A stretch of 64,000 nucleotides of DNA from Lichina pygmaea. Taxonomy: Eukaryota > Ascomycota > Lichinomycetes > Lichinales > Lichinaceae. Below, piece by piece: positions 35,409 through 60,563 of this stretch. The position numbers and the translations under genes are program-made. The notes under the pieces were generated by a model. It did not search any database, had not been told where the DNA came from, and saw only the letters and a program-made list of their open reading frames with translations. The stretch is taken from NCBI GenBank assembly GCA_963422465.1, contig OY730170.1:682001-746000 (forward strand). The letters are read 5' to 3'. Within the stretch, counting starts at the first letter, position 1. Every line of letters begins with the position of its first letter.

Positions 35409-37230
<1,822 letters not shown>

Positions 37231-40686: not shown

Positions 40687-41573
40687 TCTACAGGCGTGTG
40701 CCCGGATGGAGGCCTCCGGGGTACAGACCGAGATCCAGGAGGCCTGTGCCAGAATTCAGCGTCAGCTTGCCCCGAGGTGAGGCCGCCGGCGCCACCCTGG
40801 CACCACCCCGGGCCAGAACCGCCAACAGTGGGCCAAAACAATCCTGTGGCCACGAAGAACCATGGAGGACTCGACGGCAAGGCTCGGCATCCCCCCGTGG
40901 TCTGATGGACCACCCCCGCCCCCCGCCGTCACCACGCCGAACACCCCCCTTCCGCGGTCAGTTTGGCAGGCATACCAGCTGGCAGAACAATGGTGCTGGG
41001 AGAGCTGGCACCAACTGCATGGAGGCCCCCCGCCAACAACACCGATGCTGGACCCGGACCCCGGAGGCGGAGACAACTGGAAGCCCAGCAAGATGCCGTA
41101 CTGGTCGGCCCTCCGGCTACAAGCTGGCCTCTCGAAGGCGCAGAGCAGTATTCTGAGGCAGGTCCGCACAGGCAAGATTGGACTGGCGGCATTCCTCTGT
41201 AAACAACGGGTACCTGGCTTCCCCACACCGGCGTGCAGCTGTGGAGCGCCGTGGGAGACAGCCAAACACGTGGTTCTAGACTGCCCACGCCTTCTCCGAG
41301 TGCGGCGAAGCCTGTATCTAGCAGCTGCCACCACTGACTACCAGGCTTTGACATCCCGACCACGGCCCGCCGCCGCCCTCACAGCGTGGATCCTCCGACA
41401 AGGCATTCTCCCCCAGTTCTCCTGGGCTCAGGAGCAGCTGGAAGCTGGCTGCTAGCCAGCCACCCCCCATGTTCTACAGCATCTCGACAGGATAGTGCTG
41501 GCCAGGCACTGCAGAAGGAGGTTTTTCACCCTAGCAGGTCTAGGGTTTTCCTTGCTTAATTTTCATAGCTGAC
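40687..41573 (+). mobile_element. LINE (Tad/I-like) 5'-truncated copy, main part
   Basis: The plus strand codes for the C-terminal end of a LINE protein: LRQVRTGKIGLAAFLCKQR, then PTPACSCGAPWETAKHVVLDC (a CxC...H...C zinc motif), and QFSWAQEQLEAGC before a stop near 41453. The upstream part is in other frames. The 3' untranslated tail is interrupted at 41573 by Gypsy A and resumes at 59716-59771. A sister fragment lies at 14880-15295 on the minus strand. Confidence 0.78.
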
Positions 41574-42197
41574 TGTTGCAGTCCGTACCGTGCCGTCCTA
41601 ACCGAGTATAGGATTAAGGGCGAGATACGGAAGGCGGGTTGGTTCTCGCAGGAGAGGAGTGTCAAGGAGCGCGAAGGGGTTTGGTGGAACGTGGTGGTGG
41701 TGACACCTGATCAATGGCTTCGTACAAAAGGATTGTATTGAAGTAGATCTAGTTGTCTGGATCACAACATGAGTTGAAGACGATCGTTCCATAAGGGAAC
41801 TATCGCCGGACTATATAGTGCTCAGTTCGTGAGCACAGTGAGCTCTGCTCACTTTGCTCACTCAGTGAGATCGGTGAGCTCTGCTCACTTTGCTCACGGT
41901 TCATGCACGCTGTGGCGAGCTGGGTGAGCTCTGCTCACTTTGCTCACTTGTTCATGCACGCTGCAGCGAGCTGGGTGAGCTCTGCTCACTTTGCTCACTG
42001 TTCATGCACGCTGCGGCAAGCTGGGTGAGCTCTGCTCACTCTGCTCACGCATATGCATGCTGCGGCGAGCACCCCCTGGTTTGTCTCGCCGGTCACGTGA
42101 CTGGTTCCCGTGTCACGCTGTCTGGTACTTCCATCCAGTATCCTGTCTGCTGCTTTCTGTGACTATATAAAGACTGTGTTCCTCCTGGGTCGTAACA
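41574..42197 (-). repeat. Gypsy A 3' LTR (left, complete)
   Basis: 624-bp LTR bounded by TG...CA. It carries about three copies of a ~51-bp unit containing GAGCTCTGCTCACTTTGCTC, whose GTGAGC/GCTCAC words can pair as hairpins. A minus-strand TATATAG lies near 41810, and a plus-strand TATATAA at 42164-42170 points into the antisense gene. A CACGTG palindrome sits near 42095. Confidence 0.92.
42164..42170 (+). promoter_or_regulatory. TATA box for the antisense gene of Gypsy A
   Basis: TATATAA within the LTR lies 77 bases upstream of the ATG of the antisense open frame. A TATAAAT sits at the equivalent place, 80 bases upstream, in Gypsy B (46482-46488). The shared spacing supports a real promoter. 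Confidence 0.55.
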
Positions 42198-42240
42198 CTA
42201 TCCTCCTCTCCATCTTTCATCGTCTTGATGAAATCTGGTC

Positions 42241-42645
42241 ATGCCTCCAAAGTCATGTGCGACTGTTAGCCGAACTCAGCTTGCTGCTCAAATCCGTGAT
42301 CGGGGTTTTGTTTCACGTACGCCCTGCGACTTTTGTGTTCTCCGTGGTCGTCCGTGCTTCCAGATGCCGGGAGAAGACAATAAGTTGAAATGTGCTGCGT
42401 GCACTCGGCGCGGAAGGTCTTGTGTCTCTGTGTCCTGGGAATCTCTGAACATATCCCGGGACAACCTCCGTGAGGATGTGGCCGCTGACGAGGCAACACG
42501 CGATGCACTCTTTGAACAACTTGCCACAGTGCAGGCTCGTCTGTCTCAGAAGCGAAAGGTGTTGGAGGGCGCCGAGGTCTGTGCGAGGCAGAAGCTTCAG
42601 TGCTTGGTGAAAGAGATGGAGTCGGATGGCGAGGATTTGACTTGA
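42241..42645 (+). CDS. Antisense Zn2Cys6-like small protein carried by Gypsy A
   Basis: This 134-codon frame runs opposite to gag-pol, between the end of pol and the 3' LTR. Cysteines at residues 29, 32, 39, 51, 54 and 61 give C-x2-C-x6-C-x11-C-x2-C-x6-C, exactly the spacing of a Gal4-type binuclear zinc cluster (CDFCVLRGRPC ... CAACTRRGRSC). Residues 75-130 are heptad-like and rich in Leu, Ala, Glu and Lys (LFEQLATVQARLSQKRKVL), as in the dimerising coiled coil of such factors. A related, no longer whole copy lies at the same place in Gypsy B. DNA binding and any role for the element are inference. Similar small cysteine proteins are, to my knowledge, common among fungal hypotheticals. Confidence 0.7.
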   Translation: MPPKSCATVSRTQLAAQIRDRGFVSRTPCDFCVLRGRPCFQMPGEDNKLKCAACTRRGRSCVSVSWESLNISRDNLREDVAADEATRDALFEQLATVQARLSQKRKVLEGAEVCARQKLQCLVKEMESDGEDLT

Positions 42646-45600
42646 TCAGTCATTGACGCGTCCCTCCTGCAGGCCGAGCTGTTCAGTCCTGCTCCTGCCG
42701 AAACTATCGCAGAAGAAGCTGGCAGTTCGCAAGGTTCTTGAGTGGTTCCCAGGTATTTTCCGAGTCTGGGTATCCTTTCCACTTGACAAGGTATTGCTGA
42801 CCTTTCCTAGCCAGGATCTGTTCAACTTCGAACTCTTGTTCTTCTTCAGGTTGATAATGGAATGTTTCCTGCAAGGGTGTGCTCTGGTCGGCTGGTTCAA
42901 TCATTGATATGTGAAAGTTTGGATGGACTCTGGCATCCCTTGGTAGTCGTATCTTGACGTTGACTGGTCCTGTTTTTTCTTCGACTGAAAATGGTCTGAC
43001 CTTGATGTTGTCAAGTTTCTTTGTCTTTGGTTTTTTCGTTTTCCAATTTCTTGTGAGGAGGTAGACTTTATCCCCCTTCTTTAGCTGAGGTGCCATTTTC
43101 GATTTCTTGTCCATTTGACGTTGCATTCTTTCTGAGGTCTCTTGAAGGTAGTGCCTCATCATCGTGTGTGTTTGTCGTAGGAGCTTGTCATGTTGGAGTG
43201 CTTTCTCCGTGTTTGGTGAAGCTCTGCTTGGCATCCCGATGTTCGCATGTTGTCCAAAATTGGCAAAAAATAGCGATTCCTTTGTTAAGTCTGATCTGTG
43301 CTGGTTGATTGCTAGCTGTGCCACCGGTAATAACTGTACCCAATTGCTGTGGGTCTGGTTGATGTAATGCCGTAAGTAAGTCTCCAGGACTTGGTTTACT
43401 CGCTCTGTCTGGCCGTCAGTTCGTGGGTGATAGGCCGTAGACATTTTGGGTTTTATTCCCATGGCTGCACTGATTGTCTTCCAGTAGTTGGATGTGAAGA
43501 GTTTGTCTCTGTCAGTAATGATCGTGATCAGAACTCCGTGGTCCCTGACCAATCTGTCCAGTAGGAGGTGTCCCAACTGTTCTGCTGTGTGGGTCTCCTT
43601 GAATAGTACTGCTATTAGGTATTTTGTGAATCTGTCCACTATCACCATAATCAAGTCGTAGGTGATTCCTGTGACTGGGTCTTTGGACTTGGGTAGCTTG
43701 GTGATGAAGTCCATTGACACATCTTCCCACAGGCCTCTCAGTATCGTGTTCGGGTGTCCTTCTCTATATGGCTTGTGTCTTCCGTGTTTGTTTTTCTGGC
43801 ACAGTAGACATTTGCTGATGTAGCTTGTGACATGTTGTCAGAGGTTGATGACATTGTTCCCTGCCTGTTGGATAAGGTCTGTGGTTTTGGAGATTCCTGG
43901 GTGACCATGTGCTGGGTTGTCGTGGTAGTTCCTTATTAATTCTTCAGTGTCTTCTGCTGTGAGCTTGTTGATCTGTGGTCAAGGTACCAGGTTTCCTCGC
44001 TGGTCCTGCTGTAAGATTGTTTCTTGGCGTTCATCATCTTCCATGTGGTTTTTTCATCAGCTTAGTGTGTCTGCTCTCCCATTGTCCTGTCCGGGGGTGT
44101 ACAAGATCTTGAACTTGTGTTACCCTAGGAGTTCAGCCTATCTGACTTGTCGTCTGTTCAGCTTCTTGGTTGTTGTGAACGTTGTCAGATTCTTGTGGTC
44201 TGTGAGAATGGTGAGTTCAGAACTGCTTTCCGCGTACACTCTCCAGTGTTCAAGTGCGTTGACAACTGCCAGTAGCTCTTTGTTGTGGATATCATAGTTC
44301 TGTTCTACTTGTGTCATTTTTCGTGAGTAGTAGGCAACTGGGTGCCACTTGCTGTTTGCCTGTTGGCATAAACATGCTCCCACTGCCTGATCTGAAGCGT
44401 CTGTCTTGATTTGTGTTGGTTGGCCTGTCTTGAAGTTGAGGAGAACTGGTTCCTTGGCGCAAGCATCCTTGAGCTGCTGGAATACTTTTTGTTATCTCTC
44501 CGTCCACCAGTACTCCACGTCCTTCTTTGTGAGTTCTGTCAGTGGTGTTACTGTCTGTGAGTAGTTCTTGATGAACTGTCAGTTGAAGTTGGCAAATCCT
44601 AGGAAGGCTTGTACTTCCTTAACTGATGTCAGTGTTGGCTATTGCTGAATCACTTTGATTTTCTCAGGGTTGATCTTGATCCCTTTGATTCCTATGATAT
44701 ATCCAAAGAATTCAACTTCCAGTTTGTTGAACTTGCATTTCTTCAGGTTGAGCTTGAGCCCTGCCTTTTGTAGGTATCGTAGAACATCCTTCACATGTTT
44801 GGTATATTCCTGTTGTGTGTTCAAGTAGACAAGAATGTCATCCAAGTAGGCAATAGCTGTTTGGTCCAGGTGTGCTCTGATGATGTTGTTGATCAATGCT
44901 TGACATGTTGCTGGTGTGTTTGTGAGTCCGAATAGCATAACCAGATACTTGTAGTGTCTGTATCAGGTTCTGAAGGCTGTCTTCCATTCTTCTTCTTCTT
45001 TCATGCGTATCAGGTTGTATGCTCCTTTCAAGTCCAGCTTGGTGAAGATTGTAGCTTGGCTGATCCTGTCTCGCAATTTGTTTGCATTTGGCAACAGATA
45101 TCAGTTCTTGATGGTAATGTTGTTGAGTTTCCTGTAATCCACACAAAGTCAAAGACTTCTGTCTTTCTTTGGTGCAAATAGTATCAGGTATCCTGCTGGC
45201 GATTGAGATTCTTGAATGAAACTCTTTTTCAGGTTTTCCTCCAGGTACTCACAAAGTACTTGGAGCTCTTTCTCTGATAACTGGTAAATTGGTCCAAATC
45301 CTGGCTCTGTCCCTGATTGCAACTTGATCTCATAATCCCAAGGTTGGTGCTTAGGCAACACTGCTGTTGTTGTCTCTTCCTGAAAGAGGTTATCATACCC
45401 AGGTCAGTACTCTTCAGAGATCTCCAGAGAGTTAACAACTTCCTCTCTCTTTATCTCTGACTGTTTGGCCACCTGGTTCTGGGGTGTGCCTGTCAAGGCA
45501 GACCTCTTCTCTTGAGAGTTGTTCTTTCTGTCAGTGAGATTCCACTGAGGACTCCTTCCCTTATCTGTCCACGCCTTCTGCGGCTGGTAACAGGTCTGAG

Positions 45601-45860
45601 CTGTATTGTTAGTGTAGTTCCTAAACGTGAGTACTCCTGTCCTCCAGTTAACAACTGGGTTGTGCTTCTTTAGCCAAGACATCCCCAAATAGATATCCTG
45701 AGTGGCCAACTTGATGATATCAAGGTGGATCCTTTCAGCATGGTGTCTGGTAACTATTTCTATTGGCTGCGTCTCATGGCAGACTAGCTCTGTCTGTCCA
45801 TTTGCCATTGCGAGCTGATAGGGCTGCTGCTTGCGTCTCCTTCCAGTGCTGAGGGTGTCG

Positions 45861-45865
45861 TAAAG
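45861..45865. repeat. Target-site duplication of Gypsy B (left)
   Basis: TAAAG here and at 52512-52516 flanks Gypsy B. The Gypsy A sequence on either side joins cleanly across one copy, as the homologous uninterrupted stretch in Gypsy B (around 50180) shows. Confidence 0.93.
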
Positions 45866-46517
45866 TGTTGCAGTCTGTACTGTACTGTCCTATCCGAGTA
45901 TAGGATTAGGGTGAGAGGTGGAAGGCGGGTTGGTTCTCGCAGGAGAGGAGTGTCAAGGAGTGCGAAGGGGCTTGGTGGAACATAGTGGTGGTGACACCTG
46001 ATCAATGGCTTCGTACAAAAGGATTGTATTGAAGTAGATCTAGTTGTCTGGATCACAACATGAGTTGAAGACAATTGTTCCATAAGGGAACTATCACCGG
46101 ACTATATAGTGCTGGCCTGTCAAGACAATCAAGATTGTCTTGACAGTCTCGACATCAAGACAGGTGAGATTGTCTTGACAGTCCCACCATGTTATGCACT
46201 CTGTGTCAAGACAGGTGAGATTGTCTTGACAGTCCCACCATGTTATACATCCTGCGTTGAGACTGGTGAGATTGTCTCAATACTTCATGCATCCTGCGTC
46301 AAGACTAGTGAGGTTGTCTTGATACTTCATGCATCCTGCGTCAAGACTGGTGAGATTGTCTTGATACTTCATGCATCCTGTGTCAAGACTCCTGTGTGTG
46401 TCTCGACAGTCACGTGACTCCTTGTTGGTTGGTCACTTGACTTCCATGGTGTCCTCTTGCCTGGCCCGTGGCCTGATTGCCTATAAATGAGTGGCTCCCA
46501 TCCTCTGGGTTGTAACA
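45866..46517 (-). repeat. Gypsy B 3' LTR (left)
   Basis: 652-bp LTR, TG...CA. The first ~260 bases are close to the Gypsy A LTR. The rest has different tandem units of ~42 bp built around TCAAGACTGGTGAGATTGTC, with TCAAGAC/GTCTTGA inverted words. Confidence 0.92.
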
Positions 46518-46561
46518 CTACCCTCCTCTCCTTCATTCATCGTCCTGATGAATTCTTGAGT

Positions 46562-46980
46562 ATGTCTGCAAAATCACGTGCCTCTGCTTACTGAAACCAA
46601 CTGGCAGCCCAGATCTGTGATCATAACTTTGTGTCGCTTGCTCTGTGTGACTTCTGTGTTTTGAACCACAAGCCCTGCTTCCAAATGTCTGACAACAACG
46701 ATAAATTGAAGTGTGCTGAATGCACTTGTTGTGGGAAGTCCTGTGTGTCACTTTCTTGGGAGTTGCTGAACATGACTCAGGATAACTTTCGCGAGGATTT
46801 GGCTGTTGATGAGGCCAAGCGGGATGCTCTTGTTGAGCAGCTTGCCGAGCTGCAGGCTTGTGTGTCCCAAAAGTGAAAAGTTCTTGAAGGTGCTGAAGGC
46901 TGAGCAAAGAAGAAGCTCCAGTGCCTTGTTGCTGAAATAGAGGTGGATGGTGAAGACTTGTCAGCGACAGTCATTGACAC
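46562..46980 (+). pseudogene. Antisense Zn2Cys6-like gene relic of Gypsy B
   Basis: It occupies the same position and orientation as the antisense gene of Gypsy A. The six cysteines keep the same spacing (CDFCVLNHKPC ... CAECTCCGKSC), although many other residues differ. The copy is not whole. Retention of the cysteine pattern suggests it was under selection before this copy decayed. Confidence 0.6.
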
Positions 46981-49900
46981 GTCCGCACTGCAGGCCAAGC
47001 TGTTCAGTCCTGCCTCTGCCAGAACTGCTGCAGGAGGAGCTGGCAGTTCACAAGGTTCCTGAGTAGTTCCCAGGTATTTTCCGAGTCTGGGTAGTTTTTC
47101 CACTTGACAAGGTATCGCTGACTTTTTCTCTTCAGGATCTGTTTGACCTTGAATTCCTGTTCTTCCTCTGGTTGGTAATGAAATGTTTCCTGCAAGGGTG
47201 TGCTCTGGTCAGCTAATTTGATCATTGAGATGTGAAAGTTTGGGTGTACCCGAGCGTCTCTCAGTAGTCACAGTCTGATGTTGACTGGTCCAGTTTTTTC
47301 TTCAACTGAAAATGGTCCAACCTTGACATAGTCAAGTTTCTTTGTCTTTGGTTTCTTTGTTTTCCAATTTCTTGTGAGGAGGTAGACTTTATCCCCCTTC
47401 TTTAGCTGAGGTGCTATTTTTGATGTCTTGTCTATTTGATGTTGTATTCTTTCTGAGGTCTCTTGAAGGTAGTGCCTTATCATCATGTGTGTTTGTCATA
47501 GGAGCTTGTCATGTTGGAGTGCTTTCTCTGTGTTTGGTGAAGCTCTGCTTGGCATCCTGATGTTCGCATATTGTCCAAAATTGGCAAAAAATAGTGATTC
47601 CTTTGTTGAGTCTGATCTATGCTGGTTGATTGCCAGCTGTGCCACCAGTAATAACTGTACCCAATTGCTGTGGGTCTGGTTGATGTAATGCTGTAAGTAA
47701 GTCTCCAGGACTTGGTTTGCTCACTCTGTCTGGCTGTCAGTTCGTAGGTGATAGGCCGTAGACATTTTGAGTTTTGTTCCCATGGCTGCACTGATTGTCT
47801 TCCAGTAGTTGGATGTGAAGAGTTTGTCTCTGTCTGTAATAATCATGATCAGAACTCCGTGGTCTCTGACCAATCTGTCCAGTAAAAAGTGTTCTAACTG
47901 TTCTGCTGTGTGGGTCTCCTTGAATAGTACTGCTATTAGATATTTTGTGAATCTGTCCACTATCACCATAATCAAGTTGTAGGTGATTCCTGTGACTGGG
48001 TCTTTGGACTTGGGTAGCTTTGTGATGAAGTCTATTGACATGTCTTCCCACAGGCCTCTTGGTATCGTGTTCGGGTGTCCTTCTCTGTATGGCTTGTGTC
48101 TTCTATGTTTGTTTTTCTGGCATAGTAGACACTTGCTGATGTAGTTTGTGACATGTTGTCAGAGGTTAATAATATTGTTCCCTGCGTGTTGGATAAGGTC
48201 TGTGGTCTTGGAGATTCCTGGGTGACCATGTACTGGATTGTTGTGGTAGTTCCTTATTAGTTCTTCAGTGTCTTCTGCCGTAAGCTTGTTGATCTGTGGC
48301 TGAGGCACCAGGTTTCCTTGCTGGTCCTGCTGTAAGATTGTTCCTTGGTGTTCATCCTCTTCCATGTGGTCTTTTCGTCAGCTTAGTGTGTCTGCTCTCC
48401 TGTTGTCTTGTCCAGGGGTGTATAAGATCTTGAACTTGTGTTGCTCTAGGAGTTCAGCCCATCTGACTTGCTGTCTGTTCAGCTTCTTGGTTGTTGTGAA
48501 TGTTGTCAGATTCTTGTGGTCTGTGAGAACAGTGAGTTCAGAACTGCTTTCCACGTACACTCTCCAGTGTTCGAGTACGTTGACGACTGCCAATAGCTCT
48601 TTGTCGTGGATATCATAGTTTTGTTCCGCTTGTGTTATTTTTCGTGAGTAGTAGGCAACTGGGTGCTACTTGCCGTCTGCCTGTTGGCATAGACATACTC
48701 CCACTGCCTGATCTGAAGCGTCTGTCTTGATTCATGTTGGTTGGCCTGTCTTGAAGTTGAGGAGAACTGGTTCCTTAGCGCAAGTGTCCTTGAGCTGTTG
48801 GAATGCTTTTTGTTGTCTCTCTGTCCACCGGTACTCCACGTCCTTCTTTGTGAGTTCTGTCAGTGGTGTTGCTATCTGTGAGTAGTTCTTAATGAACTGT
48901 CAGTTGAAGTTGGCAAATCCTAGGAAGGCTTGTACTTCCTTAACTGATGTCAGTGTTGGCCATTGCTGAATCACTTTGATTTTCTCAGGGTCAATCTTGA
49001 TCCCTTCAATCCCTATGATGTATCTGAGGAATTCAACTTCCAGTTTGTTGAACTCGCATTTCTTTGGGTTGAGCTTGAGCCCTGCCTGTTGTAGGTATCG
49101 TAGAATATCCTTCACATGTTTGGTATGTTCCTGTTACGTGTTCAAGTAGACAAGAATGTTGTCCAGGTAGGCAATAGCTGTTTGGTCCAGGTGTGCTCTG
49201 ATGATGTTGTTGATCAATGCTTGACATGTTGCTGGTGTGTTCGTGAGTCCGAATAGCATAACCAGATACTTGTAGTGTCTGTATCAGGTTCTGAAGGCTG
49301 TCTTCCATTCTTCTCCTTCTTTCATGCGTATCAGGTTGTATGCTCCTTTCAAGCCCAGCTTGGTAAAGATTGTAGCTTGGCTGATCCTGTCTCGCAATTT
49401 GTTCGCATTTGGCAACAGATATCAGTTCTTGATGGTAATGTTGTTGAGTTTCCTGTAATCCACACAAAGTCGAAGACTTCTGTCTTTCTTTGGTGCAAAT
49501 AGTATCGGGTATTCTGCTGGCGATTGAGATTCTCGAATGAAACCCTTTTTCAGGTTTTCCTCCAGGTACTCGCAAAGTACTTGGAGCTCTTTCTCTGATA
49601 ACTGGTAAATTGGTCCAAATTCTGGCTCTGTCCCTGGTTGCAACTTGATCTCATGATCCCAAGGTTGGTGCTTAGGCAACACTGCTGTTGTTGTCTCTTC
49701 CTGAAAGAGGTTATCATACCCAGGTCAGTATTCTTCAGGGATCTCCAGAGGGTTAACAACTTCCTCTCTCTTCATCTCTGACTGTTTGGCCACCTGGTTC
49801 TGGGGTGTGCCTGTCAAGGTGGACCTCTTCTCTTGAGAGTTGTCCTTTCTGTCAGTGAGGTTCGACTGAGGACTCCTTCCCTTATCTGTCCACGCCTTCT

Positions 49901-51859
49901 GCGGCTGGTAACAGGTCCAAGCTGTGTTGTTAGTGCAGTTCCTAAATGTGAGTACTCCTGTCTTCCAGTTAACAACTGGGTTGTGCTTCTTTAGCCAAGG
50001 CATCCCCAAATAGATATCCTGAGTGGCCAACTCAACAATATCAAGGTGGATCCTTTCAGCATAGTGTCCGGTAACTATTTCCATTGGCTGTGTCTTATGG
50101 CAGACTAGCTCTGTCTGTCCATTTGCCATCGTGAGCTGATAGGGCTGCTGCTTGCATTTCCTTCCAGTGCTAAGGGTATCATAAAGTTGTCTTGAGATGT
50201 AGTTTCCGCTGGCTCCAGAGTCCACAAGTGCGTATGTCTGTACTGGCGTGTTGGCGTGTAGTGACACAGGCAATCACAGGTGCTTTGCGTTGCTAGGGGT
50301 CATGTTGTTGAGCTCCCGATGTTGCCCCTTGACAAGGGAGTTCAGTCTTTTCCTGATCGAAGTGTCTTACCACTGACTGGGCAATGGGTCCAGCCATTCC
50401 CATCAGTTCTGAGGAATCTGTTCATGAATTTGTCTTGCTGATGCTTGTCACATCCAGGCTTGAGGCAGTACTGCCAATTGTCAACGTAGCAGTTGTAGTT
50501 GTTGCCTTGCTGTAGGAACATGAGGTGTTTGTGCCAATCATGTGTGTGCCCGGGGAATGTGGTGTGTTGGTGTTTGTCTCAAAGATGGGTCTCACACACA
50601 TCCTTCTCGCAATTGACCCAATGCTTGTGGCAGGTGGTGTGGTAGGGTGAATGTCCTCCATACCTTCATAGTTGTTCGTGGTAGGTGCAGTAGTGCTTTG
50701 TGCAAAACCTCCACTGTAGTTCGCCGTACTGTAGATTTTGTAGGTCTATGCTGTAAGTATAGCTTCCTCATGGTATTTCTTCTTTGATAGATGTGGGTTT
50801 GTCTTGGTCCCTATCAGAGGTAGTTAAGGGCTCCTGTCCCTTGTCCTGACCTGTCTGTTCTGGTAGGTCCTTGCCTCCTGATGTTGCCAGTTGGTGGGCT
50901 GCTTCCAATGTCTGATTGTAGTTGTCCTATTGTTTGAGAGATAGCTAAGCCTCTCCTGGTGGGTCCTCTGGCTTGATGATATTCCAGTCTCCGTTGAGCG
51001 TATTAAGTTGCTGTCAGTGCACCTTGTTCTTTGAACAACAGTCTTTCGCCATGTGGCCTAGCTTGCCACAGGCATAGCACTTCAGTGCTTTCCCCTTTTT
51101 GTTGTTCCTTCCCTTCGTGAACCTTCCCTTGTGGTGGACTGCATCCAGTTCCATGGGTGCATAGCCATATAGGTCATGTGGCAGTGCTTTGTTAGGTGGC
51201 TTGTAGTGGTTGCTCACATGCCATGCGGGGTGGCTGTATCCTCTGTCGTGGTGTTTCTCCATCACTCACTTGAATAGCTTGTCATCGATGTTGATTGCTT
51301 GTGCGATGAGTTCGTCCAGTGTATTGACTGCTTGTCCGTCGAAGGTGATTTCATCCTTCATGTTTTCCTTGAGTCCACGTCAGTACATGACTATCAGGGT
51401 GTTGTTGTCCCAGTCAGTCAGTACTGAGTATTGTTTGAACTGCGTGGTGTACTCTGCGGCTGAGCGTTGTTGCTTGATGTGCTGGATCATTTGTATAGCC
51501 ACTTTGTCTTTGTTAGATGGTCCAAGGATCCTTTTGATCTTGTCCTTGAATCATGTCTATTTTGTCATCTATTCTGTTGTGCTGTTGTGGTCTCTGTTTC
51601 CTGAGAGATGTTTGTTGACGTAGGGCTTCATCCATTGATAAGCATTGCCTCTCATGTAAGTGGTTGCGAAGAGGGGCCACTTGTCCTTAGGCAGCTTTGT
51701 CTCTGGTTGGAATTGAAAGTAGACTTGGAGTTACATGAGCCAGTCGTCAACCTTGTTTCTTTCGCCGTAGAATAGGTCTGGCTTGGTAACGCTAATCTTT
51801 CCATCTGGGAAGTTGGGGTTGGTTGCTCCTGAGGTACTCATCCTTGAGGGTCTTCAAAG

Positions 51860-52511
51860 TGTTGCGGTCTGTACCATACTGTCCTATCCGAGTATAGGAT
51901 TAGGGCAAGAGGTGGAAGGCGGGTTGGTTCTCGCAGGAGAGGAGTGTCAAGGAGTGCGAAGGGGCTTGGTGGAACATGGTGGTGGTGACACCTGATCAAT
52001 GGCTTCGTACAAAAGGATTGTATTGAAGTAGATCTAGTTGTCTGGATCACAACATGAGTTGAAGACAATTGTTCCATAAGGGAACTATCACCAGACTATA
52101 TAGTGCTGGCCTGTCAAGACAATCAAGATTGTCTCGACAGTCTTGACGTCAAGACAGGTGAGATTGTCTCGACAGTCCCACCATGTTATGCACCCTGTGT
52201 CGAGACGGGTGAGATTGTCTTGACAGTCCCACCATGTTATGCACCCTGCGTCAAGACTGGTGAGATTGTCTTGATGCTTCATGCATCCTGCGTCAAGACT
52301 GGTGAGGTTGTCTTGATGCTTCATGCATCCTGCGTCAAGACTGGTGAGATTGTCTTGATGCTTCATGTATCCTGCGTCGAGACTCCCGTGTGTGTCTCGA
52401 CAGTCACGTGACCCCTTGTTGGTTGGTCACTTGACTTCCATGGTGTCCTCTTGCCTGGCCCGTGGCCTGATTGCCTATAAATGAGTGGCTCCCATCCTCT
52501 GGGTTGTAACA
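51860..52511 (-). repeat. Gypsy B 5' LTR (right)
   Basis: 652 bp, same length as the left copy, and mostly alike apart from scattered C/T-type differences. It is followed by the TAAAG duplication at 52512-52516. Confidence 0.92.
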
Positions 52512-52539
52512 TAAAGTTGTCTTGAAATGTAGTTTCCAC

Positions 52540-54123
52540 TGGCTCCAGAGTCAACAAGTGTGTATGTCTGTACTGGCGTGTTGGCGTGTAGTGACACTGG
52601 CAATCGCAGGTGCTTTGTGTTGCTAGGGGTCATGTTGTTGAGCTCCCGATGTCACCCCTTGACAAGGGAGTTCAGTCTTTTCCTGATTGAAGTGTTTTTC
52701 CACTGACTGGGCAATGGATCCAGCTATTCCCATCAGTTCTGAGGAATCTGTTCGTGAATTTGTCTTGCTGATACTGGTCACATCTGGGTTTGAGGCAGTA
52801 CTGCCAATTGTTGACGTAGCAGTTGCAGTTGTTGCCTTGCTGTAGGAACATGAGGTGTTTGTGCCAATCATGTGTGTGCCCGGGGAATGTGGTGTGTTGG
52901 TGTTTGTCCCAAAGGTGGATCTCACACGCATCCTTCTCGCAATTGACCCAATGCTTGTGGCAGGTGGCGCGGTAGGGTGAATGTCCTCTGTACCTTCGTA
53001 GTTCGCCGTGCCGTAGATTTCGTGAGTCCATGCTGTAAGCATAGCTTCCTCGTGGTATTTCTTCTTTGATAGATGCGGGTTCGTCTCAGTCCCCATCAGA
53101 GGTGGTTAAGGGCTCCTGTCCCTTGTCCTGACCTGTCTGTTCTGGTAGGTCCTTACCTCCTGATGTTACCAGTTGGTGGGCTGCTTCCAATGTCTGATCG
53201 TAGTTGTCCTATTGTTCGAGGGATAGCTGAGCCTCTCCTGGTGAGTCCTCTGGCTTGATGACATTCCAGTCTCCGTTGAGCGTATTAAGTTGCTGTCGGT
53301 GCACCTTGTTCTTTGAACAACAGTCTTTCACCATATGGCCTAGCTTGCCACAGGCATAGCACTTCAGTGCTTTCCTCTTTTTGTTGTTCCTTCCCTTTGT
53401 GAACCTTCCCTTGTGGTGGACTGCATCCAGTTCCATGGGTGCATAGCCATATGGGTCATGTGGTGGTGCCTTGTTAGGCGGCTTGTAGTGGTTGCTCACA
53501 TGCTATGCGGGGTGGCTGTATCCTCCGTCGTGGTGTTTCTCCATCGCTCGCTTGAATAGTTTGTTATTGATGTTGATTGCTTGTGTGATGAGCTTGTCCA
53601 GTGTGTTGACTGCTCATCCGTCGAAGGTGATTTCATCCTTCATGTTTTCCTTGAGTCCACATCAGTACATGACCATCAGGGCGTTGTCGTCCCAGTCAGT
53701 CAGTACTGAGTATTGTTTGAACTGCGTGGTGTACTCTGCGGCTGAGCGTTGTTGTTTGATGTGCTGGATCATTCGTATAGCCACTTTGTCTTTGTTAGAT
53801 GGTCCAAGGATCCTTTTGATCTTGTCCTTGAATTGTGTCTATTTTGTCATCCATTCTGTTGTGCTGTTGTGGTCTCCGTTTCCTGAGAGATGTTTGTTGA
53901 CGTAGGGCTTGATCCATCAATAAGCATTGCCTCTTATGTAAGTGGTTGCAAAGAGGGGCCACTTTTCCTTAGGCAGCTTCATCTCTGGTTGGAATTGAAA
54001 GTAGACTTGGAGTTGCATGAGCCAGTCGTCAACCTTATTTCTTTCGCTGTAGAACAGGTCTGGCTTGGCGACGCTAATCTTTCCATCTGGGAAGTTGGGG
54101 TTGGTTGCTCCTGAGGTACTCAT
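52540..54123 (-). other. Gag region of Gypsy A
   Basis: The minus strand begins with MSTSGATNPNFPDGK about 20 bases after the LTR and includes the CCHC zinc knuckle CYACGKLGHMVKDC near 53320-53365. It is homologous to the gag of Gypsy B. It is part of a broken fossil element. Confidence 0.85.
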
Positions 54124-54141
54124 CCTTGAGGGTCTTCAAAG

Positions 54142-54702
54142 TGTTGCAGTCTGTACTGTGCTGTCCTAACCGAGTATAGGATTAAGGGCGAGATGCGGAA
54201 GGCAGGTTGGTTCTCGCAGGAGAGGAGTGTCAAGGAGCGCGAAGGGGTTTGGTGGAACGTGGTGGTGGTGACACCTGATCAATGGCTTCGTACAAAAGGA
54301 TTGTATTGAAGTAGATCTAGTTGTCTGGATCACAACATGAGTTGAAGACGATTGTTCCATAAGGGAACTATCACCGGACTATATAGTGCTCAGTTCGTGA
54401 GCACAGTGAGCTCTGCTCACTTTGCTCACGGTTCATGCACGCTGCGGCGAGCTGGGTGAGCTCTGCTCACTTTGCTCACTTGTTCATGCACGCTGCGGCG
54501 AGCTGGGTGAGCTCTGCTCACTTTGCTCACTTGTTCATGCACGCTGCAGCGAGCTGGGTGAGCTCTGCTCACTTTGCTCACTGTTCATGCACGCTGCGGC
54601 AAGCTGGGTGAGCTCTGCTCACTCTGCTCACGCATATGCATGCTGCGGCGAGCACCCCCTGGTTTGTCTCGCCGGTCACGTGACTGGTTCCCGTGTCACG
54701 CT
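54142..54702 (-). repeat. Gypsy A 5' LTR, larger part (split by Copia)
   Basis: It begins TGTTGCAGTCTG like the left LTR and carries about four of the ~51-bp GAGCTCTGCTCAC units. At 54702 the Copia element interrupts it. The remaining piece is 59633-59710. Confidence 0.93.
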
Positions 54703-54897
54703 TGTTGGGATAATCGGTGTCGGTGACACTTCAGAATGACGAGGCACTTAGAAGACAATAGGATCTTGTATTCAATAGGATGTACTAAGACATTCGTCTA
54801 CAATGAAAAATGAGAAAACCTTCCTTCCTCCCAATCTAGGGTTAGCGCCCTTCTGTAAGTCACGTGGTATGACGTTGCAGATCGCCCAACTTCAACA
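54703..54897 (-). repeat. Copia LTR (left, 3')
   Basis: 195 bp, TGTTGGGATAATC to ACTTCAACA. The first bases inside the element (54898 on) are a run of C, the polypurine tract on the coding strand. Confidence 0.95.
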
Positions 54898-55001
54898 CCC
54901 CCCCTCGAGCTGCACCTCCACTTTGCAATTTAGCTTCCCCAAGGTGAGTATGTGGGCCCACCGTCCTCGTCCGCTGCTGCTTCCATTAGCTGACATCTCG
55001 T

Positions 55002-58000
55002 CTACTGTGTCAGACCAAGTCCCTGCAGCTTCTCCTTCCGTGCCTGAGTGCTGAGTGGCTTCGTGAGCTCGTCCGCGAGCAATTCCGCAGAAGGCACGTA
55101 TTCAACCTGCACTTTATCCGAGGCAACCTGCTCACGAATATAGTGGTATTGGACATCGATGTGCTTGGTCCGTGCGTGGAATTCCGGGTTCTTCGTCATC
55201 TGGATTGCCGATTGATTGTCCATGTCAATCCTTGTGGGTCCCGTCTGCTTTATCCCAAGCTCCGCTAACTGTCGCGATACCCAGGCTTCTTCTCGTGCTG
55301 CTGCCGTTGCAGCCATATACTCGGCCTCCGTACTCGATAGGGCGACAACGGGGGTCTTTTTGCTTGCCCAGGTGATTGCACCTCCGTTCAGCAGGAAAAC
55401 GTATGCTGCAGTCGACTTCCTTTCGATCAGGTCATCCGCGAAACTGCTGTCTGACGCTCCTGTGAGTCCTTCGTCCTTCCCAAATTGAATCCCTCGCTCA
55501 GTTGACCCTTTCAGGTATCGGAACACTCGTTTGGCGGCCTTCCAATGCACATCCGTTGGATTTTGACAATAACGGCTGAGTCTTCCCACTGCATACGCAA
55601 TGTCTGGTCTCGTACTGACCATCAAGTGCATTAGTGACCCAATTGCCTCTTGATATCGAGTCTTGTCCACTTTTGATTCCACCGGTGAGTCTTTCACCTC
55701 CTTATACGCCCTGTCTAACACCTTTATTGCTCCAGGTTCCATTGGCGTTGCGACTGGGTGGCAATCCGTCATGCCAAACCTCTCGAGAACCTTCCTGGTG
55801 TATCCGGGTTGTGACAAGGTGAGTTGTCTCTTCTTCCGGTCCCTCGTTACCTGCATGTTGAGGATCGTCTTTGCCTCGCCGAGGTCTTTGATTCTGAACT
55901 CACTGGCTAACAGCTTCTTGACCCAGTTGATCTGCTCCATATGTGGACTGATAAATAGCAAGTCATCCACATAGATCAGTATCGTGAGTCCTTCCTTCAT
56001 CCCCCCCTTCGTGAGGATACTGAAGTCTGTTGACAGCTGTCGGAAACCATGTTTCAATAGGAAACTGGTAAGTCTCCTATTCCAGAGCCGGGCTGACTGC
56101 TTCAGTCCGTACAGTCCCCTCAGCACCCTGCAGACCTTCCCTCTGGTCTCCACCCCTTCCGGTGGTTCCATGAAGATCTCCTCGTCAAGATCTGCAGCCA
56201 GGTAAGCGCTCTCAACATCACCCTGGTGGATCTCAAGGTCCTCCGTTGCGGCAATTGCTAATAGCATCCGCAGGGAGTTGTACTTCGCAGTCGGGGCAAA
56301 CGTCTCGATGTAATCGATTCCTTTCTTTTGTGAGAAACCCCGTGCGACCAGTCTTGCTTTGAATTTGGTGACCTCCCCTTGCTGATTCTTCTTCAGGTCA
56401 AATACCCACCTGGAACTAACCAGGTTCTTTCCAGCAGGTAGGTCTTCAAGTCTCCACGTCTTGAAGCTTGCTAACTGACTCAATTCCTTCTCAGTAGCTT
56501 TCCTCCATTCGTGTCCGAAAACCGCGTCGTTCACCGCTTCTTCGTACGACCCCGGAATCGTCGGTACGGGCGCCACAGCACCTCGCTCTTCTGTTGCAAA
56601 GGCACCTTCCTTTGCCTTCCCTGTTGCCTTGCGGATCCGCGTACTCCGCCTCGCTGGCTCTGTTTCCTGTGCCCTTTCAGACCCTTCCTTCGTGGCCTTG
56701 CCTGTGGCCCTGTTCTCTTGTGGACTTCTTTCAGGTTCCACACGACCTCTTCCTTCTGACTCGTTCGACTCCTGAGCTCCTTCCTCAGGTGCTTCAGCTG
56801 GTCCTTCAGCCACTCCTTGTCGGGGCTGCCAAGGTGAGTCTTCCGTCCCTTCCGCGTCGTATCTTACTGACTCTTCGTCACTGTCTTCTTCGTCCGGTTC
56901 GTCCGACCGATCAGGTACGCCTTGCACCTGTCTCTCTGTCCTGGTTTGCTCGGGCACTGAGGTGACCTGTGGCCACCCCCCCTCAATGCTGTGCTCGGGC
57001 CCTGAGGTGACCTGTGGCCACCCCCCCTCAATGCTGACCTTCTCCTTAGGTCGCACCTGCGCTCGTTGTCCCACGATCTCTTCCATGAATCGTACGGACG
57101 CTGCAGCCGCAATCTTCTTCGTCTCCGGGTTCCATACCAGGTAAATGTGATTACCCCGGTACCCCACCATTACTCCTTTCCAGGCCAGTTGATCTAACTT
57201 CTTCCTCTTCTCCTTCGGTATATGCACGTATGCGACACACCCAAAGGCTCTCAGATGGCCTGCGTTGACGGTCCGTCCCGTCCATTCTCCTTCCGGCAAG
57301 TCCTTCCTATCCCCGTGTGGCAGCTTGTTGTCCAGGTACGCTGACGTCTGGGCTGCTACGGGCCACAGCTGCATCGGCAGCTCCGCGTCCGCCAACATCG
57401 CTTTCACCCGACCGATAATCGTTCGGTTATACCGCTCGGCAACCCCGTTTTGCTGTGGGTTGTACGGCACGGTGGGTTCTTCTCTTACTCCCTCTGGCTT
57501 CAGACGCTTCAAGTACTGACTGATGTATTCTTTGGCGTTGTCACACCGTATCCTGCACAGCTTCTCGCCGGATTCCCGTTCCACCATGGCTTTCCAGCTG
57601 CCAAAAGCGACGGGTAGCTCACTCCTGAGCTTCATGGGATACACCCACGTCATCCGGGTCCAGTCATCAATCATCGTCAGCAGGTACCGTGATCCGTCGT
57701 ACCCTTCATCTTGCAGAGGTCCGCACACATCGGTGTGCACCAGTTCGAGCTTTCTTGTCGTTGTTGCTTCAGCCTTCTTCCGGAGAGTCTTCTGCATTTT
57801 GGCTAATATGCAGTCCTCACAGTTCTCGACTTCCTCCTCATCGTACTCGAACCCTTCGAGTTTGCCGGTGAGTGCTGCCCTCTTCATGACAGCCTTGCTT
57901 GCATGCCCTAGCCTCCGGTGCCAGGTCTTCTTCTTCGCGTCTGCAGGACTCTCCTGTCCTGCCCCGCCGGTCGGGCTCTCCTGTCCCGTCGCGAGGACCA

Positions 58001-59270
58001 CCTCGCCATTTGCCTTCAAGTGGTACGTGCCCTTTTCTCTTCTGGCCGTTACCCTTCTTCTGCCATTCTTTATTATGGCCATCTCCCCATTCTTTGTTGT
58101 TGTCTCGAACCCCTTCTTGTCCAGATCTGAAACTGACATCAAGTTGGCAGTCAATCCAGGTACGTACAGCACTCCTGTGACTGTCGCAACACCGCTCTGC
58201 TGGTTGAACCGGGTCCGTACAGTTCCTACACCTTTGATCGCAAGCCTGTCTCCGTTGGCTACTGACAGGTGGCCTCCCATGGGTTTCAACTCAACGAATA
58301 GTCCGAGGTCCCAGCTCATGTGTCGGGTCGCACCGCTGTCAACGATCCAATCGCTCGTCCGTGGTTCCCCGATCACCAGATCTGGTACAAGGCAAGTGAG
58401 GTAGGTCTTCTCTCCTTCCTCATCCTCCCGGTACGTTGCCGCTCTTGCCTTCTCCCCTCTCTTCCTGGGTTTCACCGGGGGTTCGTCCTCCAATGGGGTT
58501 CCGTCTGCTGACCGTGTCGCGAAACATTCAGACTTCCTGTGCCCTGTCCGGTCACACCGGAAGCACTTCATGTCCTTTCCGTCTCGTCGGCCCTTGCTCC
58601 GTCCTTTGCCCTCTTTACGGACAGCCAGTGCCTGCTCCGCTTCTCCCTTGATGATCCGTGCCTCTTCTCCTGCTAACTTCTGCAGGACCTTGTCCAGTTC
58701 GTCGATCTGATCCGTCGTTATGAGGATCTTCTTCATGGTATCGTACTCTGGCGTCAACGACTCTAGGAGCAGGATCACTAATGTCTTTTCCGGCAGTTTC
58801 AGCGTCGAGTCGTAGCTCTCTATTTCGGCATTGAGCACACGGATCCTCGACCCTCTCTCTTCTATCGTTCGGCCGAGGTCCTTCGAAAACAGCTGTACCA
58901 TCGCGTTGTGCAGCTTCTCGTTGTTCGGCCGTTCGTGGATCCCTTTCAGGGTCTTCCAGATGTGGTAGGGGTGCTCGATCCGTCTGACGTGTTTTTGCTG
59001 CTCTTCACTAATTGACGACAGTATGATGTCTGCTGCCTTTCCTTCTTCTGCCTTGCTATCCTGCCACTCCTTTGTGGCCTCGATCCGTTGACCTTTGGAT
59101 CCTGTTGCTGACGTTTGGGCAGGCTTCATCTCTGACTCTTCTGGCTCTACAAGGACGGTGTGCCAGACTCTTGCGGCCAATAGCCGCATCCTGATAACTT
59201 GTGCCCAGTCTTCATAGTTCTCTGGGCCCCGGAGCAGGACCTTCCTGCCCTGTTCCTTCTTGTCTTCCAT
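55002..59270 (-). CDS. Copia Gag-Pol polyprotein
   Basis: One frame of 1422 codons with all Ty1/copia parts in family order. It has a UBN2-type Gag N-terminus (residues 1-230), a CCHC knuckle CFRCDRTGHRKSEC near 236-249, and protease DWIVDSGATRHMSW near 307-320. The integrase zinc region is HRRLGHASKAV...CEDC, and its core starts HTDVCGPL near 515. Reverse transcriptase includes LVARGFSQKKGIDYIETFAP, VESAYLAADL and YVDDLLF. RNase H contains ALSSTEAEYMAA. A short tandem duplication (SIEGGWPQVTS twice) lies in the integrase-RT linker. The frame looks whole, and no Gag-Pol frameshift is needed. Confidence 0.95.
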   Translation of the reverse strand: MEDKKEQGRKVLLRGPENYEDWAQVIRMRLLAARVWHTVLVEPEESEMKPAQTSATGSKGQRIEATKEWQDSKAEEGKAADIILSSISEEQQKHVRRIEHPYHIWKTLKGIHERPNNEKLHNAMVQLFSKDLGRTIEERGSRIRVLNAEIESYDSTLKLPEKTLVILLLESLTPEYDTMKKILITTDQIDELDKVLQKLAGEEARIIKGEAEQALAVRKEGKGRSKGRRDGKDMKCFRCDRTGHRKSECFATRSADGTPLEDEPPVKPRKRGEKARAATYREDEEGEKTYLTCLVPDLVIGEPRTSDWIVDSGATRHMSWDLGLFVELKPMGGHLSVANGDRLAIKGVGTVRTRFNQQSGVATVTGVLYVPGLTANLMSVSDLDKKGFETTTKNGEMAIIKNGRRRVTARREKGTYHLKANGEVVLATGQESPTGGAGQESPADAKKKTWHRRLGHASKAVMKRAALTGKLEGFEYDEEEVENCEDCILAKMQKTLRKKAEATTTRKLELVHTDVCGPLQDEGYDGSRYLLTMIDDWTRMTWVYPMKLRSELPVAFGSWKAMVERESGEKLCRIRCDNAKEYISQYLKRLKPEGVREEPTVPYNPQQNGVAERYNRTIIGRVKAMLADAELPMQLWPVAAQTSAYLDNKLPHGDRKDLPEGEWTGRTVNAGHLRAFGCVAYVHIPKEKRKKLDQLAWKGVMVGYRGNHIYLVWNPETKKIAAAASVRFMEEIVGQRAQVRPKEKVSIEGGWPQVTSGPEHSIEGGWPQVTSVPEQTRTERQVQGVPDRSDEPDEEDSDEESVRYDAEGTEDSPWQPRQGVAEGPAEAPEEGAQESNESEGRGRVEPERSPQENRATGKATKEGSERAQETEPARRSTRIRKATGKAKEGAFATEERGAVAPVPTIPGSYEEAVNDAVFGHEWRKATEKELSQLASFKTWRLEDLPAGKNLVSSRWVFDLKKNQQGEVTKFKARLVARGFSQKKGIDYIETFAPTAKYNSLRMLLAIAATEDLEIHQGDVESAYLAADLDEEIFMEPPEGVETRGKVCRVLRGLYGLKQSARLWNRRLTSFLLKHGFRQLSTDFSILTKGGMKEGLTILIYVDDLLFISPHMEQINWVKKLLASEFRIKDLGEAKTILNMQVTRDRKKRQLTLSQPGYTRKVLERFGMTDCHPVATPMEPGAIKVLDRAYKEVKDSPVESKVDKTRYQEAIGSLMHLMVSTRPDIAYAVGRLSRYCQNPTDVHWKAAKRVFRYLKGSTERGIQFGKDEGLTGASDSSFADDLIERKSTAAYVFLLNGGAITWASKKTPVVALSSTEAEYMAATAAAREEAWVSRQLAELGIKQTGPTRIDMDNQSAIQMTKNPEFHARTKHIDVQYHYIREQVASDKVQVEYVPSAELLADELTKPLSTQARKEKLQGLGLTQ

Positions 59271-59432
59271 CCTATTGGCTTGCCTTCTGCTAACGTCGTG
59301 GCTAGCCCTTCCTTACGGCCTTTTCCTCTAGGCCCTTCTTTGCAGCCTTTTCCTCTAGGCTCTTCTTCTCTTCTTCTTCGACTTCTTCACAGTCGATTCA
59401 ACCTCGTCAGCGGGATTCCCGGGCTCATAACC

Positions 59433-59627
59433 TGTTGGGATAATCGGTGTCGGTGACACTTCAGAATGACGAGGCACTTAGAAGACAATAGGATCTTGTA
59501 TTCAATAGGATGTACTAAGACATTCGTCTACAATGAAAAATGAGAAAACCTTCCTTCCTCCCAATCTAGGGTTAGCGCCCTTCTGTAAGTCACGTGGTAT
59601 GACGTTGCAGATCGCCCAACTTCAACA
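59433..59627 (-). repeat. Copia LTR (right, 5')
   Basis: 195 bp, reads the same as the left LTR by eye. The adjacent element sequence to the left (GGGCTCATAACC before TGTTGGG) is the primer-binding site on the opposite strand. Confidence 0.95.
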
Positions 59628-59632
59628 ACGCT

Positions 59633-59710
59633 GTCTGGTACTTCCGTCCAGTATCCTGTCTGCTGCTTTCTGTGAGTATATAAAGACTGTGTTCCTCCTG
59701 GGTCGTAACA
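59633..59710 (-). repeat. Gypsy A 5' LTR, remaining part
   Basis: It carries the same end as the left LTR (GTATCCTGTCTGC ... GGGTCGTAACA) including the plus-strand TATATAA. It is followed by the CTGAC duplication and the rest of the LINE tail. Confidence 0.92.
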
Positions 59711-59715
59711 CTGAC

Positions 59716-59771
59716 CCAGCATAGTCTAGATAACTAGCACTAGAATGGAGTAGGAATACTAATAACCAACC
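59716..59771 (+). mobile_element. LINE 3' tail, right of the Gypsy A insertion
   Basis: CCAGCATAGTCTAG, CACTAGAATGGAGTAGGAAT and AATAACCAACC match the 3' untranslated end of the sister LINE at 14880-14945. The 14-bp duplication GATACCAGCTGGTA follows at 59772-59785. Confidence 0.7.
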
Positions 59772-59785
59772 GATACCAGCTGGTA

Positions 59786-60169
59786 AAAAGTCTTGATTTA
59801 AGCTATAGACTCTGCCTATTTGTGTTTCTTGTCTATAGGCTTTAGGTAGACACTTTCCAGAGTGTCCAAATAATATTGAACAAACTGTCAATGTTAGGAT
59901 CCCGGCCACCTAGCGGAGTCTGGGCGGCGTCCTATCAAGGGTTCTAGCCAGCAGTGTGGCGGCAGAGGAACAGAGGAGATCTTTCGGGCCCTGGAGAGGC
60001 TCTAGTAGAGCTGTGGGACCAAGTCGGAGCAGGGCCGTCAGGCGCCTGCAGGTGGATGCGTAGATTGATCGCTGAGGATCCTAATCCTCAGCGAGAAGTG
60101 CGCTATGTTAGCTAAGCAGCTGACTAAGCGCGGTCAGGTGACAGGGGTAGCTCTGACAGTCAAGTCCAG
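59786..60169. other. Interior of the inverted-arm element, right part
   Basis: Noncoding. Near 60122-60163 it repeats the CTGACTAAGCGC...CTGACAG block seen at 40395-40430. An inverted CTGAGGATC/GATCCTCAG-like palindrome lies near 60070-60092. Confidence 0.4.
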
Positions 60170-60563
60170 CACTTCCCACGTAAGCAGTTTTCCAGTGGTG
60201 TGTTCTGCTAGATCTCAGATGATCTGAGGAGTCATTGGCCATCCCTAAGGCTTAGAGCACTGATACACTCTACCAGTACTAAATCTTGGGTATCAGAAAG
60301 AACTTTAATAACTGTCAAGTTGACTTCTTCTTAGAAGGTGCTTTTACCCTGATAGTGATGAGAAAGGGTGTGGCAACTGATATTGTGCCTTGATGCAGTG
60401 GCTAAGTAGTTGATTTGATCTGCCAACTCAAGCTCAGCAAGTGCCTCACTCATTCAGTCTTCAGAAGACTTCTCCATGGCGATAAAATAAAGAAGGCAGT
60501 CGAGGTGCAGCGGAATACTGAGTGTTGGGTGATACTGAGCGCCACGTGATCGGTTACGGTACT
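60170..60563 (-). mobile_element. Right inverted arm of the DNA-transposon-like element
   Basis: Inverted copy of 39497-39890, including a diverged version of the HTH-transposase N-terminus. It ends at GGTTACGGTACT. It is less well preserved in coding sense than the left arm. Confidence 0.65.

Follow-up and report, generated by a model that had tools for sequence, protein, structure and literature searches.

Does a fungal retrotransposon encode a regulator of its own long terminal repeat (LTR)? The question is raised by a stretch of 64,000 nucleotides of the Lichina pygmaea genome (contig OY730170.1, positions 682,001 to 746,000; hereafter the window), in which a chromodomain Gypsy retrotransposon on the minus strand, element A, is accompanied by an open frame on the opposite strand, between pol and the 3′ LTR. 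We propose, with a probability of about 0.6, that this frame represents an accessory gene of the element: antisense, LTR-driven, and encoding a probably dimeric Zn2Cys6-like regulator of the element's own LTR. The assembly searched comprises 32.47 Mb in eight contigs, the second of which contains the window. A related element, B, is nested within element A, and a third element, C, within the 5′ LTR of A. The features on which the argument rests are as follows:

42241..42645, plus strand: antisense Zn2Cys6-like/coiled-coil frame, type A copy in the window, 134 codons and stop
42324..42423, plus strand: six-cysteine cluster region of this frame, about codons 29-61 (positions computed from the ATG at 42241)
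about 41574..42197, minus strand: 3′ LTR of element A (left edge approximate, from BLAST)
42198..42211, minus strand: polypurine tract adjoining the 3′ LTR edge (read by eye, motif type from general knowledge)
42704..43837, minus strand: 3′ part of element A pol, with integrase core, SH3 domain and chromodomain
45862..52511, minus strand: nested element B, with LTRs at 45862-46517 and 51856-52511 (95.6% identity)
46562..46963, plus strand: B-type relic of the antisense frame, three in-frame stops, all six cysteines kept

An Antisense Gene Conserved as Protein

The window frame begins with an ATG at 42241, 44 bases beyond the LTR edge at 42197, and its last codon ends at 42642, followed by the stop at 42643-42645 (plus strand; 134 amino acids), opposite the pol frame that ends at 42704 on the minus strand. 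A preliminary description of this DNA had reported such a 134-codon frame within the span 42198-42704 (from the LTR edge to the pol stop), as well as a related relic with the same six cysteines in element B; both are present where they were placed. The length of 134 codons is right for the window copy and wrong for the gene, as sibling copies reach 166 codons and extend, on the opposite strand, across the final ∼12 codons of pol. Judged by its sequence, the window frame is a shortened, degraded copy of this 166-codon gene.

Frames of this kind occur at 450 or more places in the genome. Type A and type B each occupy at least 150 places (150 scored of 503 and of 516 candidates, respectively), and a more distant type, represented by locus L076, occupies at least 150 more (150 scored of 279; identity 73-100%), with about 115 of the 150 rows free of stops by our own count. 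For comparison we used 60 A and B loci (L001-L030, L045-L074), taken from each search as its top 30 matches by similarity, so that the stop and cysteine counts given for them are optimistic. All six cysteines are kept in 60/60 of these copies. Each of these loci holds the antisense position of the aORF-3R (antisense open reading frame) type, the 60 having been found via the frame itself. Five further loci were retrieved around other Gypsy pol genes, and three of them (L076, L078, and L079) have an antisense cluster and coiled-coil frame at the same place. The antisense frame was not found at the remaining two of the five, L075 and L077, which belong to another Gypsy family. The preliminary description had named two observations that would speak against a gene: random loss of cysteines, which is absent from the A and B copies and was seen as one lost cysteine in L079, of another family; and homologous elements lacking the frame, which were seen only in the form of the different family of L075 and L077.

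In codons 1-134, A frames differ from B frames at 30-32% of bases (identity 0.68-0.70), with zero gaps in 5/5 pairs. The ratio of nonsynonymous to synonymous change (dN/dS), whose computation across copies had been suggested as a check, is 0.11-0.15 for the antisense frame in 6/6 A-B pairs. For the same pairs, the remaining plus frames give 0.99-1.97, and values for the minus frames are 0.21-2.07. These pairs were chosen among little-decayed copies, and some copies were reused between pairs. Between L003 and L074, 62 of 132 changes are nonsynonymous, compared with 76% predicted under neutrality (binomial p = 8e-13), and between L076 and L078, dN/dS is 0.177 overall and 0.087 over the cysteine region. 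Across codons 1-154, the antisense frame is stop-free in 6/30 A and 6/30 B copies, while any other frame is stop-free in 0/60.

The frame might instead have opened by chance or be the shadow of a frame on the sense strand. The low minus-frame ratios belong to the frame that shares its third positions with the antisense gene (0.21-0.25), and the window copy holds minus frames of 110 and 127 codons; yet the ratio of 0.21-0.25 lies above that of the plus frame, and none of the 60 copies has a stop-free minus frame over codons 1-154. Given the contrast in dN/dS between frames and the stop counts in the 60 copies, this alternative was rejected, and we regard it as barely credible. On these sequence comparisons, the antisense frame is a real gene under purifying selection as a protein.

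A Zn2Cys6-Like Protein

Proteins of the Zn2Cys6 family (PF00172) follow the spacing C-x2-C-x6-C-x5-12-C-x2-C-x6-8-C. The translated window frame reads C-x2-C-x6-C-x11-C-x2-C-x6-C, the Gal4-type spacing that had been claimed for it, and also contains a long helix; the family rule holds for the window copy, the B relic, L076, L078, and 60/60 A and B copies. The L076 and A-type proteins are only 22% identical, yet both have the six cysteines and, following the cluster, a tryptophan, and the cysteines are invariant across four aligned proteins. Profile comparison gives a match to GAL4 (E 0.047), and a Foldseek search with the L076 model, which has short helices in the cluster and a long helix after it, returned Zn2Cys6 proteins in 19 of 21 rows. 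Profile and fold comparisons point to Gal4-type Zn2Cys6 proteins, below formal cut-offs. Of the combination of Zn2Cys6 cluster and coiled coil put forward earlier, a Zn2Cys6-like, coiled-coil-bearing protein under purifying selection stands; formal family membership does not, as the Pfam gathering score is not reached.

A search of NCBIfam gave nothing relevant. Membership in DUF3716 (PF12511) was considered and rejected (13.4 bits, E 0.077, below the gathering score of 22 bits). Nine other places in the genome (L031-L039) exceed the DUF3716 cut-off; these are host-type matches, with a cysteine pattern that resembles the present cluster but is distinct. A six-frame search of the genome with Zn_clus (PF00172) found at least 27 places, which is few for a filamentous fungus. 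This compares with at least 450 places for the retroelement frames described here, both figures being lower bounds.

Inverted-Word Arrays Between Two TATA-Like Motifs

In the direction of the gene, the sense TATA motif of the LTR comes first, then the inverted-word array in its unique 3′ (U3) region, the antisense TATA motif (types A and B), and the LTR edge, followed by the polypurine tract and the ATG:

41812..41819, minus strand: sense TATA-like motif, 3′ LTR of element A; faces gag-pol when in the 5′ LTR
41829..42048: U3 array of the element A 3′ LTR, inverted words GTGAGC (6) and GCTCAC (10)
42164..42171, plus strand: antisense TATA-like motif, element A 3′ LTR, with the ATG 77 bases further on
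46119..46407: B-type U3 array, GTC[AG]AGAC / GTCT[CT]GAC, between sense TATATAGT at 46103-46110 and antisense CTATAAAT at 46481-46488

As background, GTGAGC and GCTCAC together occur 20 times in the 44.5 kb of the window outside 41000-60500. The array words differ between the A, B, and L076 types: A loci have 4-21 A words and 0-1 B words, and B loci have 4-18 B words and 0-2 A words. The array word agrees with the gene type in 60/60 loci, although these are not 60 independent events, since array and gene are linked neighbors. The antisense TATA motif lies within the LTR in 58/60 loci, as does the sense motif (likewise 58/60). Such a motif is in keeping with the suggestion that the gene may be expressed from its own LTR. 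In the L076 type, GGACGAGC-N16-GCTCGTCC units or decayed forms of them, one to four per locus, were read in 7/7 loci, six of which were later additions selected for divergence; units begin with GGTC in L080 and L085, and the words of L078 are GGACGAG and CTCGTCC.

A metric of inverted words reaches 6 in three A loci, 3, 6, and 4 in three B loci, and 4 in L078. When single array units, chosen by eye, were shuffled 1000 times, the observed value was reached in 0 shuffles for the A word count, 0 for the left B unit, and 2 for L078. In the flanks read at L075 and L077, the family without the gene, no inverted array was found (metric 1); these flanks could not be assigned to LTRs and are possibly chimeras.

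A Divergent Block on a Shared Backbone

Elements of types A and B are nearly identical over 200 bases on the R-U5 (repeat and unique 5′) side of the LTR (identity 0.95-0.98) and differ strongly in U3 (0.54-0.56). Identity is 0.84-0.86 from codon 134 of the antisense frame to position 2300 and returns to 0.95-0.96 in the next kilobase of pol. Transversions follow the same course: in four windows of the frame they number 0.108-0.153 per site between types (900 A-B pairs), compared with at most 0.004 within types, and past position 2300 in pol they number 0-0.017 for A-B pairs, 0-0.005 among A copies, and 0.001-0.029 among B copies. The array, both TATA motifs, the gene, and the chromodomain-bearing end of pol thus differ between A and B as one block on a shared backbone.

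The block takes in the C-terminus of pol with the chromodomain (oriented positions about 1963-2300), and targeting could therefore have been exchanged along with the regulator. Within the gene, change in the cysteine region may go with the difference in array words. Between A and B, whose words differ, 0.19-0.21 of nonsynonymous sites are changed in the cysteine region and 0.16 in the helix region, and between L076 and L078, whose words are alike, the corresponding values are 0.09 and 0.20. This comparison of sequences is suggestive only.

Proposed Function and Alternatives

In the mechanism that we favor, transcription would run into the element from an antisense promoter in the U3 of the 3′ LTR, and the product would be a small protein, Zn2Cys6-like and DNA-binding, that has a long coiled-coil helix and probably acts as a dimer. 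This protein would bind the family-specific inverted-repeat U3 array, which the two TATA motifs flank, and binding would set both gag-pol transcription from the 5′ LTR and transcription of the regulator itself. As to the direction of the effect, activation is modestly favored, because Zn2Cys6 proteins are mostly activators and because the tails of the protein look, by eye, acidic and hydrophobic.

Several results weigh against this reading. L076 and L078 match Zn_clus (PF00172) at 16.0 and 15.7 bits (E 0.013 and 0.017), short of the gathering score of 21, and the window protein has no Pfam match to Zn_clus. Codons 135-154 give no sign of selection (dN/dS 1.0-1.4, with few changes and low dS); they sit where the A/B divergence fades. 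The unit pattern for L076-type loci was tailored to the L076 units and tolerates decay, which weakens the argument from the arrays. The inverted-word metric is low in L076 (2), L079 (2), and six decayed L076-type loci (1-3), and of 242 background tiles 63 reach 2, 9 reach 3, and 4 reach 4 or more. Among single-unit shuffles (of 1000), the A dyad arm alone was equaled in 201, the B 42-base unit in 102, and L076 in 55. Statistical support from the arrays is accordingly good in three cases (A, the left B unit, L078) and weak in two (L076, the B 42-base unit).

Of the two roles offered in the preliminary description, a self-made regulator and an antisense brake, a brake acting purely as RNA is made less likely by selection at the protein level. 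That the antisense transcript acts as RNA, through silencing of the element by double-stranded RNA, with the frame incidental, would agree with the antisense TATA motif in 58/60 loci, and such a role for antisense transcripts is discussed in PMC7264820; the constraint on amino acids and the absence of gaps make it improbable. A protein that represses the U3 of its own family and so limits copy number, with a new block of array plus gene as a means of escape, is a sub-case of the favored explanation with the opposite sign. In its favor, A and B have nearly the same R-U5 and pol but differ in the regulator gene, the candidate operators, and both promoters, and both types are present at 150 or more places; the acidic, hydrophobic tails fit an activator (by eye), and a single A/B exchange was seen, so that we hold repression of this kind to be rather doubtful. 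Somewhat less likely still is a nuclear helper of another kind, acting for instance in nuclear entry or in target choice by the integration complex, with the U3 arrays being unrelated tandem repeats. Targeting may be the thing exchanged, given that the divergent block includes the chromodomain end of pol, and tandem arrays of unknown function are common near the antisense genes of plant Retand elements (PMC11963269, available part); this alternative leaves unexplained the inverted words between two TATA motifs and the joint difference of array and gene.

A further, tentative extension of the self-regulator reading is that antisense regulator, operator array, and two facing promoters form an immunity-like cassette that is swapped as a block between elements with the same pol. 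Each round of reverse transcription gives both LTRs the U3 of the 3′ end, and a single exchange near that end would therefore bring the entire element under a new, orthogonal regulatory group. If so, A and B would be two regulatory groups on one backbone in one genome. The protein class, the candidate words, and the two natural gene-array pairs on one backbone make the question directly testable by binding and reporter assays.

Relation to Known Systems

In lambdoid phages, immunity changes when repressor and operators are exchanged. The immunity regions of these phages resemble the present block in that regulator and operators are swapped together on a shared backbone, an analogy only, with no homology implied. 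GAL4, PUT3, PPR1, LEU3, and HAP1 share with the present protein the cysteine spacing, the cluster helices and long helix (in the L076 model), and inverted-repeat candidate sites. Compared with these fungal factors, the present protein is below the Pfam cut-off, small, without a large regulatory domain, and borne by a mobile element, and its candidate words are without CGG, unlike the sites generally known for such factors.

The HBZ protein of human T-cell leukemia virus type 1 (HTLV-1) is a bZIP protein. Its gene is antisense and encodes a nuclear regulator, with the promoter in the 3′ LTR (PMC7264820, PMC11963269; available parts). The layout of an antisense gene with an LTR promoter is alike, while the DNA-binding fold is another and the host element a retrovirus, so that the comparison is one of working principle only. 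If our proposal is right, retrotransposons would have turned a fungal transcription-factor fold into an LTR-driven self-regulator whose layout is comparable to the retroviral one.

Among fungi, the Boty-like retrotransposons of Botrytis cinerea reportedly carry an antisense gene, brtn (said to be described by Zhao et al. in Virology in 2011). The fungal LTR element Boty has gag-pol with a CHROMO domain and an extra antisense gene between pol and the 3′ LTR (PMC4227169, PMC8365987, PMC7264820; available parts). The brtn gene is thus alike in lying antisense at the same place in a chromodomain fungal LTR element, a comparison made by description only, and BRTN may turn out to belong to the same protein family as the present frame. 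Plant elements also have antisense frames (aORFs), namely Grande (gene23, whose product is nuclear), RIRE2, Retand, and PvRetro13, and the ORFs of Retand contain a TRP28 domain predicted to bind DNA and often lie beside tandem repeats (PMC7264820; PMC11963269; available parts). These plant aORFs differ in belonging to other protein classes, without Zn2Cys6, and the tandem repeats beside them are situated outside U3, in the stretch from pol to the LTR (PMC11963269, available part). Antisense genes at this place are already known from plants and from Boty, with function left unresolved (PMC7264820, PMC8365987, PMC4227169, PMC11963269). In a literature search of titles and the beginnings of abstracts, with subscription papers including Zhao et al. 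(2011) outside its reach, no Zn2Cys6 antisense gene in an LTR element was found. The Zn2Cys6 identity, the U3 arrays, and the exchanged block appear to be new, although Zhao et al. may hold part of this. Newly annotated zinc-finger proteins have been described in Blumeria (PMC10648671, available part).

Element Architecture, Decay, and Other Features

Element A shows the marks of a chromodomain Gypsy element (chromovirus): matches to rve, SH3_Tf2-1, and Chromo, the Gypsy order of pol, and a C-terminal chromodomain. Its reverse transcriptase and RNase H are separate open pieces upstream of the integrase (matches to RVT_1 and RNase H). Its remaining parts are:

44138..44962, minus strand: RNase H and reverse transcriptase pieces of element A pol
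54142..54702, minus strand: first part of the element A 5′ LTR, with the remainder at 59628-59712, past element C

Searches for relatives outside the genome found none in viral contigs (alignment A1, pol) or genome contigs (pol); these collections are viral and prokaryotic, and the result is therefore uninformative about distribution among fungi.

Decay of the A copies is mainly C-to-T change at CpG (367 changes at 96 CpG sites, compared with 153 at 150 CpA sites). Classical repeat-induced point mutation is unlike this preference for CpG over CpA in the A and B copies. Stop codons are mostly TGA in A and B copies and mostly TAG in L076-type copies.

Element C (54703-59627, minus strand) has 195-base LTRs that are 100% identical, a 5-base repeat, ACGCT, at both flanks, and a single open frame of 1436 codons (55002-59312); judged by its domain order, it looks Copia-like. 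Elsewhere in the window, at ∼35770-35960 (plus strand), a short tandem repeat gives an ALLCS-type reading in several frames and is probably a minisatellite.
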